Source: an uncultured Pelagibacteraceae bacterium (GTDB lineage Bacteria; Pseudomonadota; Alphaproteobacteria; Pelagibacterales; Pelagibacteraceae). From it: a stretch of 64,000 nucleotides of DNA. The translations under genes and the position numbers were made by a program. The stretch covers positions 62,001 to 126,000 of the forward strand of contig CACNSD010000001.1 of the NCBI GenBank assembly GCA_902623075.1, written 5' to 3'. The first letter of the stretch is position 1, and each line of letters begins with the position of its first letter. Below the pieces are notes generated by a model. It saw only the letters and a program-made list of their open reading frames with translations, ran no database searches and was not told the DNA's origin. Below are positions 49,347 through 53,522 of this stretch, one piece after another.

Positions 49347-50411
49347 CTAAAAGCAAACTATATGCTCAAGTCGTATTGGTCTCTTTATGCCAAATTTATC
49401 ATTTATCTCATGGATTTCGTGGTGATGCGTATTAACAAGAACAGGAATAAACCTTTTACTTAATGTTTTTAAAGTATAAATAAAATTTGTACCTCTAAAT
49501 TTTCTGTCAACAACTTCTAATTTTAGATTACTATTGTCATCATGCTCTAAATCTTCTGGCTGTAATAGCAATTGAACTTTTGAACCTTTAGGATAATGCT
49601 TAATAAATTTTCCCTCTATCAATCCCAAATCATCATTTTCAAGTGAATTTTCTCCAGTTACTTTTGCTGGTATCAAAATACCTCGATTTAAGAAGTTAAC
49701 TACCTCAATTGAATTTGGAAAATGATAAACATTGTAAGGATCATCAAATTGTTTTATTTGACCGTCTAATATAATTGCACATCTGGTGCCTAGATAAAAA
49801 GCTTCATATGAGTCATGGGTCACAATTATAGTAGTTATTTTCAATTTGCTTAATATTTTTTTTAATCTTTCTTGAATTTCTTCTTTAAAACTTTGATCAA
49901 CATTCGATAATGGCTCATCTAACAATAAAAGATCAGGTTGTGTTAACAAAGATCTTGCAAGTGAAGCTCTTTGTGCCTCACCTGCACTAATTTCATGAGG
50001 ATACTTTTTGAGTATTTTTGAAATATCAAGTAAATTTATAATTTCATTATAACTAAGTTTTTTTGTTTTTATATTTTTATTTCTCTCGGCACCTAATAAT
50101 ATATTTCTTTCAACAGTAAAGTGTGGAAATAAACTATTGTCTTGAAATGCTAAGGATATATTTCGTTGCTCAGGTTCTATGTGTGTATCTTTAGAAGACA
50201 ACAAAGTGCCATTTAAATTGATCGAACCTTTGTCTACTTTTTCTAAACCAGCTATTGTTCTTAATATTGTTGTTTTTCCTATTCCTGAAGGACCCAATAT
50301 ACATAAAGTATCTCCTTGGTTTTCAATACAAAATGTAGCATTCTTAACCTTTGTTTTTCCACCAATTTTAAAATTAACACTATTTATTTCTAAAAAATTT
50401 TTCTTTTTCAT
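49347..50411 (-). CDS. fbpC: Iron(III) ABC transporter ATPase (FbpC type)
   Basis: 354 residues. Walker A GPSGIGKTT near 38, signature EISAGEAQRASLARSLL near 138 (S-A-G-E where L-S-G-G-Q is usual, seen in FbpC/PotA-like members), Walker B LLLLDEPLSNVD near 162 and the H-loop THDSYEAF near 198. The C-terminal part forms a regulatory OB-like domain. Its ATG overlaps the permease stop (ATGA). Energises iron import with the proteins encoded upstream. Confidence 0.92.
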   Translation of the reverse strand: MKKKNFLEINSVNFKIGGKTKVKNATFCIENQGDTLCILGPSGIGKTTILRTIAGLEKVDKGSINLNGTLLSSKDTHIEPEQRNISLAFQDNSLFPHFTVERNILLGAERNKNIKTKKLSYNEIINLLDISKILKKYPHEISAGEAQRASLARSLLTQPDLLLLDEPLSNVDQSFKEEIQERLKKILSKLKITTIIVTHDSYEAFYLGTRCAIILDGQIKQFDDPYNVYHFPNSIEVVNFLNRGILIPAKVTGENSLENDDLGLIEGKFIKHYPKGSKVQLLLQPEDLEHDDNSNLKLEVVDRKFRGTNFIYTLKTLSKRFIPVLVNTHHHEIHEINDKFGIKRPIRLEHIVCF

Positions 50412-52027
50412 TTTTCTCTTAAAATATACTTAGATGTAAACATAATGAAAATTGCTGCAATTAAAATCAAAAAAAGTGATGGAACAGCTGCAGCTTCTAA
50501 CAAGTCCTCAGAAGCAGATATATAAGCAGTTGTAGCGAATGTTTCGAAATTAAAAGGCCTTAAAATAAGAGTTATTGGAAGTTCTCTAATAATTTCAATG
50601 GAGACTAATATAGCTACAAATAAAAGTGAATTTCTTAAAAGAGGTACATGAATATTTAAAAAAGTTTTTTTCTTTGAGTAACCAAGAAGATAGGAACTTT
50701 CATCAACAGATACATTAATTTTTTCATATCCTGACTTGATACCATTAAAAGCTAAAGAGTAAAATCTTACAAAATAAACTAGAACTAAACCAAGAACTGA
50801 CCCAATAAAAAATTTTTTAATAGATAAAAAACCTAGTTGCTTAACAATATTATTATCAAACCAAGCGACAAAAGTTATAAACGCTACAGCTAAAATTACA
50901 CCAGGAATAGCATAGCCTGATATAGATATTGTTGATAAAAAATTTAAAAAACTATTTTTAGAAACTCTATTTCCATAATTTGAAATTAGAGAAAAAATTA
51001 TTAGTGCTGAACTGGATAAAACTACCAAGTAAAGAGTGTTCAAAGTTAATGAAATTATATCTATATCATAAAGGTTTTCTGGAAATTTAATTGTCCAATA
51101 CAACATTTGACTTAAAGGAAACAAAAAACTTAAAAAGAAAATAACAAAACAAAATATGAATGCGAAAAAAGATTTTTTTCCAGTTAATTTAATTTTTTCT
51201 TTTTGTTTAAATCCACCCTTTGAGTTGAAGTGATATCTGGCTTTTTTTCTAGAAAAGTTTTCTATTATAAAACATCCAAAAATAAATATTAATAGGAAAA
51301 ATGATAATCGATTTGAAAAAGCTAAGTCATCAAAAGTAATCCAAGAATTATAAATTCCAGTGGTTAATGTATTTATTGAAAAAAAATCAACCGCTCCAAA
51401 TTCAGCTAAGGTCTCCATTGCAACAAGTGAGAGACCTGCAACAATAGCTGGTCTAGCAGCTGGGATTATTAATGAATATAAAGATTTAAATTTTGATAAA
51501 CCTAAGCTTCTACCTAAATCTATTAAATTCTGAGATTGGTATAAAAAAGAGGCTCTAGTAAGAATATATACGTAAGCGTATAAAGAAAATGAGAGTGATA
51601 AAGTTGCGCCCAATCGACCATCAAACTTTGGAATGTATTGATTGTATTCTCCTTCACCAAATAAATTGCTCAAAATTGTAAAAGCTGTTCCATAATTTTC
51701 AAAAAAAGCAGTTAAAGAATATGCGTAGATATATGGAGGAACAGCAAAAGAAAGTATAAGTGCCCATTTAAAAAAATCACATAAAGGGAATTTATAAAAA
51801 GAGACTAGATATGCGCATGTCACTCCTATTAAAAAGGTAAGAATTAAAACACTTATTAGTAATGTTGAAGAATTAAAAATGTACTCTAAAAGAAAAGTAT
51901 CTTTTAAAATTTGATAATAGTTAGATGTATCCTCAAAAAAGCTAAAAAATACTGTTATAATAGGGATTAATACACCAATAGATATAATTAATGATGATAA
52001 CAGCCAAATATTAAACTTGTTTAACAT
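50408..52027 (-). CDS. fbpB: Iron(III) ABC transporter permease (FbpB type, two fused halves)
   Basis: 539 residues with about 12 helices, i.e. two permease halves on one chain as in FbpB/SfuB. Coupling helices are LIDLGRSLGLSKFKSLYSL near 165 and VDESSYLLGYSKKKTF near 445, one per half. No ribosome binding site is visible before its ATG, which follows the RNA element at 52089-52156. The binding-protein gene lies upstream. Confidence 0.92.
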   Translation of the reverse strand: MLNKFNIWLLSSLIISIGVLIPIITVFFSFFEDTSNYYQILKDTFLLEYIFNSSTLLISVLILTFLIGVTCAYLVSFYKFPLCDFFKWALILSFAVPPYIYAYSLTAFFENYGTAFTILSNLFGEGEYNQYIPKFDGRLGATLSLSFSLYAYVYILTRASFLYQSQNLIDLGRSLGLSKFKSLYSLIIPAARPAIVAGLSLVAMETLAEFGAVDFFSINTLTTGIYNSWITFDDLAFSNRLSFFLLIFIFGCFIIENFSRKKARYHFNSKGGFKQKEKIKLTGKKSFFAFIFCFVIFFLSFLFPLSQMLYWTIKFPENLYDIDIISLTLNTLYLVVLSSSALIIFSLISNYGNRVSKNSFLNFLSTISISGYAIPGVILAVAFITFVAWFDNNIVKQLGFLSIKKFFIGSVLGLVLVYFVRFYSLAFNGIKSGYEKINVSVDESSYLLGYSKKKTFLNIHVPLLRNSLLFVAILVSIEIIRELPITLILRPFNFETFATTAYISASEDLLEAAAVPSLFLILIAAIFIMFTSKYILREK

Positions 52028-52088
52028 TATATGAGTTATTATATAAAATAATAATTATTTCTAAAGTTAAAGTGAAGACTGATTTATA

Positions 52089-52156
52089 GGGATTTTTTAA
52101 TACCCACGTCAGTTTCTAGGAAAGGGTAAAAATCCCAGAGGAGAGTGACGTGGGTA
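52089..52156 (-). ncRNA. Candidate RNA pseudoknot in the iron-transporter operon
   Basis: On the minus strand an 11-base helix, TACCCACGTCA (52156-52146) with TGACGTGGGTA (52111-52101), closes a 34-base loop. GGGATTTTT in that loop (52136-52128) is the perfect complement of AAAAATCCC just 3' of the helix (52097-52089), which is an H-type pseudoknot. A small TTTC/GAAA hairpin lies beside it. No U-tract follows, so it is not a plain terminator. It lies between the binding-protein/small-ORF unit and fbpB and may control readthrough or fbpB translation. Pairings were found by eye. Confidence 0.6.
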
Positions 52157-52177
52157 CTGTCTAAAAGAAATATATCA

Positions 52178-52363
52178 TTATTTAAAAGGAGTGAGGATGT
52201 CTAGAGCCTCGTCTTTTTCAATCTCTGATAATTTTCTATTATTTATTTTACTCTGCATTTTTTCAACCTCTGACGAGCAAGGCTCACATGTTATCTGACC
52301 CTCAAGTGAGCCCCTCGTTTCAGAAGAATTATTTAAATTAGAGTTAAATAAATTCTTTTTCAC
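52178..52363 (-). CDS. Small cysteine-pair protein in the iron operon (hypothetical)
   Basis: 61 residues, GTG start 6 bases after the binding-protein stop. Contains GQITCEPCSSEVEKM, a C-x-x-C pair, then a charged helical tail ending LDILTPFK. It keeps reading frame across a region between two iron-transport genes, but no ribosome binding site is strong and no family is recognised. A real small iron- or thiol-related protein is possible; a chance frame is the alternative. Confidence 0.4.
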   Translation of the reverse strand: MKKNLFNSNLNNSSETRGSLEGQITCEPCSSEVEKMQSKINNRKLSEIEKDEALDILTPFK

Positions 52364-52369
52364 TTTATG

Positions 52370-53398
52370 TTACTTCCAACCAGCAGCTGTCATTACTTCT
52401 AGTGCAGCAGCTTGATTTTTTCCATAAGTAGATACTTTAGTTGCTAAATCTTGTTTAAAATCTAACCCTAAATTATTTACTACTAATGGATTTGGAGAAA
52501 CACCACCTATCATTGGAAACTCAAATGTGTTATTTGTAAAGTGTTCTTGAGATTCTGGTGATAATAAGAAGTCAACAAGTGCAATAGCATTTGCTTTGTT
52601 AGGCGCACCTTTCACAAGAGCAGCACAGCTAATATTCATGTGTGTACCTCTACCTTGTTGATTAGGGAAAAACGCTTTAACTTTTTTTGCAGCTGCTTGT
52701 TGTTCTGCTCCTTTATTTCCAGATAACATCAAAGCTAGATAATAAGTATTTGCTACAGCAATATCAGCTTCACCAGCTGCCACTGCCATAATTTGCGCTC
52801 TATCATTACCTTTTGGTGTTCTTGCCATATTAGATACAACACCTTTAGCCCAGTCTGCAGTAGCTTTTTTTCCATTATTTGCGATTAATGAAGCTACTAG
52901 AGATTTGTTATAGATATTGCTTGATTTTCTTATTACTAATCTACCTTTCCATTTTGGATCAGCTAAACCTTCGTAAGTTAAACCTGATAACTCAGCACCA
53001 CTAACTCTTTCAGGTGAGTAGTAAATAATTCTTGCTCTTTTTGCTACTCCAACCCACTTATTAGTTCTAAAGTTTTTTGGAACAGATGCTTTGATTGTTG
53101 CAGATGATAAACCACCTTGGAGCAAACCTTTTGCATCCATAGCGCCACATCTTCCAGCATCCGCAGTTATATAAAGATCGGCTGAAGAATCCGCTCCTTC
53201 TTCGGCTATTCTTTTTTCTAAGGCTCCTGATTTACCATTAATTAAATTTACTTTAATTCCTGTAGCTGCTGTAAATTTATCATACATTTCAGCATCAGCC
53301 TTATAATGTCTTGCATTGAATACATTCACTTCATTTGCAATAGCAAAAGCTGAAACAAATAAAGATATTATCAATGCTAAAATTGATATTTTTTTCAT
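52370..53398 (-). CDS. fbpA: Iron(III) ABC transporter binding protein (FbpA type)
   Basis: 342 residues from the ATG at 53398 with AAGGAA in front; an earlier ATG would add 16 residues before the signal peptide. Signal peptide ends AFAIA before NEVNVFNARHY. The tyrosine pair for iron in NTYYLALML near 225, and SADLYITADAGRCGAMDAKG near 75, fit FbpA. Preceded by tandem Fur-like boxes, so iron-regulated. Main gene of the operon fbpA-small ORF-RNA element-fbpB-fbpC. Confidence 0.93.
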   Translation of the reverse strand: MKKISILALIISLFVSAFAIANEVNVFNARHYKADAEMYDKFTAATGIKVNLINGKSGALEKRIAEEGADSSADLYITADAGRCGAMDAKGLLQGGLSSATIKASVPKNFRTNKWVGVAKRARIIYYSPERVSGAELSGLTYEGLADPKWKGRLVIRKSSNIYNKSLVASLIANNGKKATADWAKGVVSNMARTPKGNDRAQIMAVAAGEADIAVANTYYLALMLSGNKGAEQQAAAKKVKAFFPNQQGRGTHMNISCAALVKGAPNKANAIALVDFLLSPESQEHFTNNTFEFPMIGGVSPNPLVVNNLGLDFKQDLATKVSTYGKNQAAALEVMTAAGWK

Positions 53399-53430
53399 AT
53401 TATTCCTTAAAATTAACGTTATTTTGAGAA

Positions 53431-53461
53431 TGAGAATTATTCGCAATGCGAATGATTATCA
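53431..53461. promoter_or_regulatory. Tandem Fur-like boxes upstream of fbpA
   Basis: Two 7-1-7 inverted repeats follow each other: TGAGAAT-T-ATTCGCA (53431-53445) and TGCGAAT-G-ATTATCA (53447-53461), 33 to 63 bases ahead of the fbpA start. Their joint inner arms also make a perfect ATTCGCA-A-TGCGAAT palindrome, and GCGAnTGATnATCAnTCGC (53448-53466) extends the second. This is the geometry of Fur or Irr sites and predicts repression by iron. The regulator is not in this window. Confidence 0.75.
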
Positions 53462-53522
53462 ATCGCAATAATGTCGCATATATATATAGTTTATGTCAAT
53501 ATTTCCAATGGTTTTAACGGTA

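Follow-up and report, generated by a model that had tools for sequence, protein, structure and literature searches.

The potC RNA motif is said to occur upstream of membrane-transport or peroxiredoxin genes. Table 1 of the paper that described it gives potC as probably an RNA, probably cis-regulatory, ambiguous as a switch and restricted to marine bacteria (Weinberg et al. 2010, PMC2864571, Table 1), and no later work on it was found in the literature searched, beyond this 2010 description and a data-set paper. In ABC importers the binding protein tends to be made in excess, and in Clostridia the ratio is set by stem-loops that follow the binding-protein gene, as reported in PMC9045158. Under iron limitation, the sfuC, sfuB and sfuA mRNAs of P. 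ubique HTCC1062 rise 16, 10.4 and 5.0 fold and the SfuC protein rises 27 fold; within the cited sections of that study, SfuC is the only protein clearly raised along with its mRNA, and SfuB peptides were never detected, which the authors partly blame on membrane-protein chemistry (PMC2864753). The HTCC1062 sfu operon is equated here with the fbp operon by gene content alone, and HTCC1062 is not among the best 80 of 335 Pelagibacteraceae loci.

The window, that is, the whole stretch of 64,000 nucleotides from an uncultured Pelagibacteraceae bacterium that was analysed, contains a single RNA at Rfam gathering scores. This is potC (RF01751), at 52163-52094 on the minus strand, the same strand as the surrounding genes, scoring 80.3 bits where the gathering score is 44 (cmscan, E 1.3e-15 over the window). 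The window's genome holds one copy of the element stretch and one potC match. The element stands 14 nt past the stop of a 61-aa CxxC ORF, with the permease ATG 66 nt downstream, and lies in the gap preceding the iron permease gene, where the original prediction had placed it. That prediction expected such a cis-regulatory RNA to be new; it is in fact an orphan motif published in 2010 and already catalogued. The covariance search against Rfam returned this known family and no class of pseudoknot riboswitch, in that no riboswitch of the SAM-II, SAM-V or preQ1 kind matched in 51900-52400 at E up to 1. The parts of the element are as follows.

52094-52163, minus strand: potC RNA (RF01751), full model 1-70, by cmscan
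52146-52158, minus strand: P1 5' arm AGUACCCACGUCA, pairing with 52099-52111, from fold and covariation
52133-52139, minus strand: P2 5' arm UCUGGGA, pairing with 52115-52121, from fold and covariation
52124-52130, minus strand: conserved apical loop core UUUACCC, from the alignment of potC sequences
52115-52121, minus strand: P2 3' arm UCCUAGA, from fold and covariation
52099-52111, minus strand: P1 3' arm UGACGUGGGUAUU, from fold and covariation
52089-52097, minus strand: AAAAAUCCC, 3' strand of the originally proposed crossing helix (5' strand at 52128-52136), unconserved and probably a chance match

In the fold, a 13-bp stem (P1) surrounds a 7-bp hairpin (P2), the loop of which has 11 nt; the predicted energy is -28.1 kcal/mol (z -5.5), with none of 200 shuffles equally stable. 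P1 includes one G-U pair and contains the 11-base perfect helix of the original prediction. The stem is followed by AAAAAA and not by a U tract, and the terminator scan of the region found no terminator-like site at potC; an intrinsic terminator after the binding-protein gene was rejected on both grounds.

Compensatory changes in both helices of the original drawing were sought in an alignment of 34 distinct potC sequences, comprising the window, 11 SAR11 genomes and 22 Pelagibacteraceae records, and were found at many pairs of the P1 stem and at one pair of the crossing helix. Across P1 and P2, 91.8% of cells are paired compared with 82.8% after shuffling, and two-sided changes occur at 12 of 20 pairs, with 7 of 12 in helix 1 of P1, the single pair counted as helix 2 of P1 and 4 of 7 in P2. 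The covariation score is 0.291 versus 0.149 in shuffles, which ignore relatedness and none of which (0/500) scored as high. Slid controls, in which relatedness is kept, showed two-sided changes at 2-6 pairs and pairing in 31-51% of cells, the latter figure being biased low because the structure was derived from the window's own sequence. The P1 pair at columns 17/67 is non-standard in 21 of 31 sequences. The loop letters UUACCC are invariant in all 34 sequences.

The crossing helix would join GGGAUUUUU at 52136-52128 to AAAAAUCCC at 52097-52089 on the minus strand. Its nine-base match is perfect in the window's sequence (P 0.005 in tail shuffles), and an H-type pseudoknot riboswitch built on it was the form originally drawn. 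None of the other 33 potC sequences has an equivalent match longer than 7 bp, a two-sided change occurs at one pair only, and 67.2% of cells are paired versus 68.6% after shuffling, a percentage reached by 497 of 500 column shuffles. The crossing helix moreover uses GGGA of the P2 5' arm, and the two helices are mutually exclusive. The crossing helix was rejected on its absent covariation, its shortness in relatives and its competition with the covarying P2, and is taken as a chance match of the letters. With no Rfam pseudoknot riboswitch family matching the element either, an H-type pseudoknot riboswitch is very improbable here. The original prediction noticed a real RNA, structured and probably cis-acting, between fbpA and the permease gene, and its pseudoknot drawing is wrong.

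The genes around potC form an operon that reads, in the sense direction, fbpA, CxxC ORF, potC, fbpB and fbpC, with a peroxiredoxin gene between potC and fbpB in some relatives.

52370-53398, minus strand: fbpA/sfuC/futA-type ferric-iron-binding protein, by phmmer to solved iron-binding proteins and Pfam SBP families
52178-52363, minus strand: 61-aa CxxC ORF directly upstream of the hairpin, kept in most SAR11 loci examined
52038-52065, minus strand: predicted fbpB promoter TTTAGA-16-TATAAT, by consensus scan
50408-52027, minus strand: fbpB/sfuB iron permease, 539 aa, no SD, Pfam BPD_transp_1, iron role taken from the neighbouring binding protein
49347-50411, minus strand: fbpC/sfuA ATP-binding subunit, Pfam ABC_tran, 105 bits

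FbpA matches solved iron-binding proteins (e.g. 2pt1, phmmer E 1.8e-88). For the permease and the ATPase, no NCBIfam model reached its cut-off (PotB, 29 bits of 348), and PotA models (about 200 bits) outscore the ferric model (175) on the ATPase, so that the choice between polyamine and iron is made by the binding protein alone. Since that protein matches ferric-iron-binding structures, a polyamine transporter leader, the role carried by the name potC, was rejected. The CxxC ORF, which has a C-x-x-C motif and a second motif, N-x-R-K-L-S-E-I, is about 54-64 aa long in most SAR11 loci inspected. It matched no Pfam or NCBIfam family, and four such ORFs had no Pfam match even at E 10; its conservation in the loci compared marks it as a putative conserved microprotein of the iron operon. 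Upstream of fbpA, at 53426-53466, lies GAGAATGAGAATTATTCGCAATGCGAATGATTATCAATCGC, which we take to resemble a Fur/Irr-type iron box, and the palindrome ATTCGCATTGCGAAT is also listed by the site scan.

potC scored above the cut-off in 11 of 297 genomes of the family and in 12 of 197 genomes of the order (largely the same genomes), counts from which the search filters lose weak matches, and among 385 genomes of the class in the window's own genome only. All 12 different above-cut-off matches lie in the same operon for SAR11 ferric-iron uptake and, as predicted for relatives of the window, between fbpA and fbpB. The gene order at these loci is fbpA, a 61-64 aa CxxC ORF, potC, a peroxiredoxin gene in 6 of 12, and the permease gene; the peroxiredoxin belongs to the Redoxin family (Pfam; one tested). 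Thus, in the loci inspected, potC is upstream of transporter or peroxiredoxin genes. In genome G290, the open frame of the permease at the potC locus (L009, 658-1398, minus strand) is no more than 246 aa long, and the FbpB match of this genome is weaker (E 3e-129); this permease is either a broken gene or an assembly fault. A 33-bit match below the cut-off (L014), which lies opposite two long frames resembling membrane proteins by eye, was taken as chance and not counted as potC. Among viruses, 31 contigs match GGATNTTTACCCTTTCCT, and none carries potC at the gathering score in the stretches examined.

A search of the 297 family genomes detected fbpB in 227, and 216 fbpB-upstream gaps, 198 of them distinct, were compared. 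They consist of 6 potC loci (L008-L013), 30 from the family fbpB search, 100 fetched by place and 80 from Pelagibacteraceae, the last being the best 80 of 335, nearest to the window. By sequence pattern, 39 distinct loci hold potC. ORF inspection placed a peroxiredoxin gene between potC and fbpB in 25 of these (L002, L003, L006, L007, L011, L012 and 19 further distinct loci) and none in 14; a scripted test finds 22 of 39, missing L011, L012 and L162. Many non-potC loci have a different hairpin in the same gap and some, e.g. L029, L031 and L187, have none. When 20 chosen non-potC loci were searched against Rfam at E up to 1, potC was returned only for L098, at 36.4 bits and below the cut-off, so that these sister hairpins are not potC members as the model stands.

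The gap also varies by apparent natural deletion. L029 and L031 with their twins L184 and L185, and L187 (three distinct sequences in all), lack the CxxC ORF and the hairpin, and pass directly from fbpA to a short leader with AAAAAGGG(C/T)AAA and then fbpB. Most of the CxxC ORF and the hairpin are missing from both L171 and L049, together with the peroxiredoxin gene in L171 and a part of that gene in L049. On a tree built from 93 FbpB rows, potC is spread over several deep branches, and the type in which a UUUACCC loop faces GGGUAAA falls mainly in one nested clade; the bootstrap leaves 36 of the 90 inner branches open, and the tree leaves the order of events undecided. Its branching suggests that the peroxiredoxin gene was gained or lost several times.

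The start of fbpB differs between potC loci and the others. No SD was found for fbpB in the window, in keeping with the original remark that the permease gene has no visible ribosome site. Among distinct loci with a clear start, an SD-like word precedes fbpB in 2 of 37 potC loci versus 117 of 157 others, and 30 of the 37 versus 5 of the 157 have TATWAT 8-12 nt upstream of the ATG, kinship being ignored in both comparisons. Counted by distinct leaders, the SD-like word occurs in 2/27 potC leaders and 51/90 others, and TATWAT in 20/27 and 5/90. Because an SD-like word precedes only 9 of the 54 ORFs of 150 aa or more in the window, the missing SD alone says little, being usual in this genome. The -10-like box before the ATG, unlike the missing SD, is unusual here, with TATWAT at that place in 1 of the 54. 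The predicted fbpB promoter of the window agrees with the consensus at 10 of 12 positions, and 10 nt separate the end of its second hexamer from the ATG at 52027; as the scan gave 10 sites in the region against a mean of 6.3 in shuffles, it is a consensus match only. The pattern of leaders suggests a promoter of its own for fbpB in potC loci and, with it, a nearly leaderless mRNA.

These features bear on whether potC might be a riboswitch that binds a ligand, most likely an iron- or redox-related signal, and governs through the opening and closing of P1 how the gene that follows, for peroxiredoxin or permease, is translated. Its loop letters are highly conserved, it lies in one metal-uptake operon, and P1 comes close to a start codon in three loci, its 3' arm reaching to 7-8 nt from that of the peroxiredoxin gene in L002 and L003 and to 5 nt from that of the permease gene in L010; its discoverers, too, left the question "switch?" undecided (PMC2864571). 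A riboswitch is nevertheless unlikely, since the structure is a stem plus a hairpin with no supported tertiary pair, and 35 of 37 loci have no SD before fbpB for it to hide. In addition, potC is kept in the 14 of 39 distinct loci where ORF inspection found no peroxiredoxin gene. In these loci fbpB begins anywhere between 5 nt (L010) and about 150 nt (L202, L204) further on, in most cases beyond a promoter-like box.

Several sister hairpins have loops complementary to the SD of fbpB. A UUUACCC loop faces a GGGUAAA SD in many loci (e.g. L203), AUUACCC faces GGGUAAU in L032, L052 and L059, and CUUACCC faces GGGUAAG in L096. Other sequences form comparable pairs, namely UUAUUACCCA with UGGAUAAUAA in L103 (one mismatch, over the start codon), UUCCUCUAA with UUAGAGGAG in L100 (one G-U), CCUCCUCC with GGAGGAGG in L107 and CCUCCUCU with AGAGGAGG in L115, where the fold places the last two loop letters in the stem. 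Tandem pairs of hairpins occur in L042, L055 and L064; in L055 both loops carry the anti-SD-like GUCUCCUU, with GAAGGAG between the two hairpins, and GUCUCC occurs in one hairpin of the pair in L042 and in L064.

Loop shuffles gave P below 0.05 in 11 of 21 loop-SD rows, the other 10 including all four AAGGCGG rows (P 0.12-0.60), and in none of the comparison rows (0/5 hairpins without apparent pairing, 0/3 potC rows). In 15 distinct ACCC-type rows, which are not independent of each other, the third pair (x3) is U-A, A-U, C-G or U-G in 12 (shuffled 6.7, P 0.004); 110 of 120 cells are paired over eight columns (shuffled 104.0, P 0.006) and 27 of 45 over the three variable columns (shuffled 21.5, P 0.037). 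For six groups, the assignment of each loop to its own SD was the best of 720; once six control hairpins had joined the set, 19 in 20,000 assignments were as good, and for the controls alone 665 of 720 were as good or better. As the six groups were picked after the pairing had been seen, these tests show specificity between groups and not frequency. The complementarities and their compensatory changes make a loop-SD pseudoknot likely in sister lineages, though not in all of them. It is different from the pair drawn in the original prediction.

The conserved loop of potC proper has no such partner in cis. Among 26 chosen potC loci, a GGGTAA-type complement is not conserved elsewhere in the operon, and GGGTA alone occurs downstream in 7. 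GGAAAGG is found upstream in 26 of 26 and is read as the fbpA codons for Trp-Lys-Gly, probably uninformative as a loop partner. An upstream match in the CxxC ORF, GGGUCAGAU, was dropped as partner since L010 and L011 are without the encoded residues. The strict conservation of a loop without a cis partner implies that something else, a protein or another RNA, may also recognise it. This is the main unexplained point, and a ligand, a protein and a trans RNA are all candidates.

A trans role would make potC the seed part of a 3'-UTR-derived or processed sRNA, whose UUUACCC loop pairs with the SD of other mRNAs in the manner of CcsR anti-SD hairpins. Besides the loop conserved without a cis partner, the anti-SD-like sequences in sister loops (in L055 in two tandem hairpins) and the small ORF upstream, which recalls the CcaF1-CcsR arrangement in the cited part of PMC10253847, agree with this. 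We consider it improbable, because AAAGGGTAAA is rarer in the genome than its reversed control (6 versus 16 sites, one of the 6 being potC itself), and four CxxC ORFs have no match in Pfam up to E 10. Four of the five non-potC sites lie inside long open frames and the fifth (L240) at a frame edge, and no persuasive target was found among the AAAGGGTAAA sites genome-wide. Similarly doubtful is the binding of a protein, such as an iron-responsive cold-shock CspE or CspL, to the U-rich loop with an effect on decay or translation of the operon mRNA. The levels of CspE and CspL track iron in P. ubique and the two are proposed to act on mRNA structure, within the cited sections of PMC2864753, and the loop is both conserved and U/C-rich, but nothing directly connects CspE or CspL to this gap.

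The explanation we favour, tentatively and with slightly less than even confidence in the whole, is that potC, as an intercistronic element, uncouples permease expression from expression of the abundant iron-binding protein. From the mRNA and protein pattern of HTCC1062 and the Clostridia stem-loops, the SAR11 hairpins are taken to hold the permease at a lower level of expression than the binding protein. In the sisters with a fitting fbpB SD, loop-SD pairing would lower permease translation. potC proper may be derived from, or related to, this loop-SD arrangement. At potC loci, where fbpB mostly has no SD, it would have its own promoter and a nearly leaderless mRNA, and potC would end or protect the fbpA message, marking and probably stabilising the 3' end of the fbpA-CxxC transcript and abutting the peroxiredoxin start where that gene is present. 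A role in iron-transporter stoichiometry is a good candidate.

A bolder and rather improbable version regards the SAR11 fbpA-fbpB gap as a site of fast-evolving iron-responsive RNA switches, in which an iron-linked signal would release the loop-SD pairing and loop and SD would have co-evolved through several unrelated sequence solutions. potC would then be the branch in which the sensing part outlasted the permease's gain of a leaderless promoter of its own.

Compared with known systems, the SAR11 gap shares features with several. CcsR loops are anti-SD sequences, and some sister SAR11 loops likewise hold anti-SD-like sequences, in L055 in tandem. The CcaF1-CcsR/cuckoo RNA loci of alphaproteobacteria also have a small ORF followed by RNA elements, but in the cited part of PMC10253847 the CcsR are processed sRNAs beside a DUF1127 protein, whereas the SAR11 SD is in cis, in the next gene. 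A CcsR/cuckoo locus, which goes by the DUF1127 protein, was rejected for the window, four CxxC ORFs having no Pfam match at E up to 10. The Clostridia stem-loops likewise lie between binding-protein and translocator genes, with the binding protein in excess, but are described in the cited part of PMC9045158 as putative intrinsic terminators with a U-rich tract, whereas potC has no terminator-like site and some sister loops match the SD. A candidate structured region of P. ubique belongs to the same operon as potC, but at 1181972-1182071 it lies between sfuC and SAR11_1239, before sfuC and not in the sfuC-sfuB gap, according to the cited part of Meyer et al. (2009, PMC2704228).

The closest system is potC RF01751, with which the element itself is the same, in its full-length match, its two nested helices, its conserved loop and its transporter neighbours. 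What is added here is the SAR11 host, a ferric-iron and not a polyamine operon, and the joining of the transporter and peroxiredoxin contexts into one operon; as far as the literature searched goes, the novelty seems to lie in the host group, in the placement in one iron operon, in the recognition of the misnomer and in the sister hairpins whose loops match the SD. An orphan since 2010 under a misleading polyamine name, potC is now placed in an iron-uptake operon of the abundant SAR11, and this single operon, together with sister loops that co-vary with the permease SD, makes its function directly testable. That function would bear on the mRNA-protein mismatch reported under iron limitation in SAR11.
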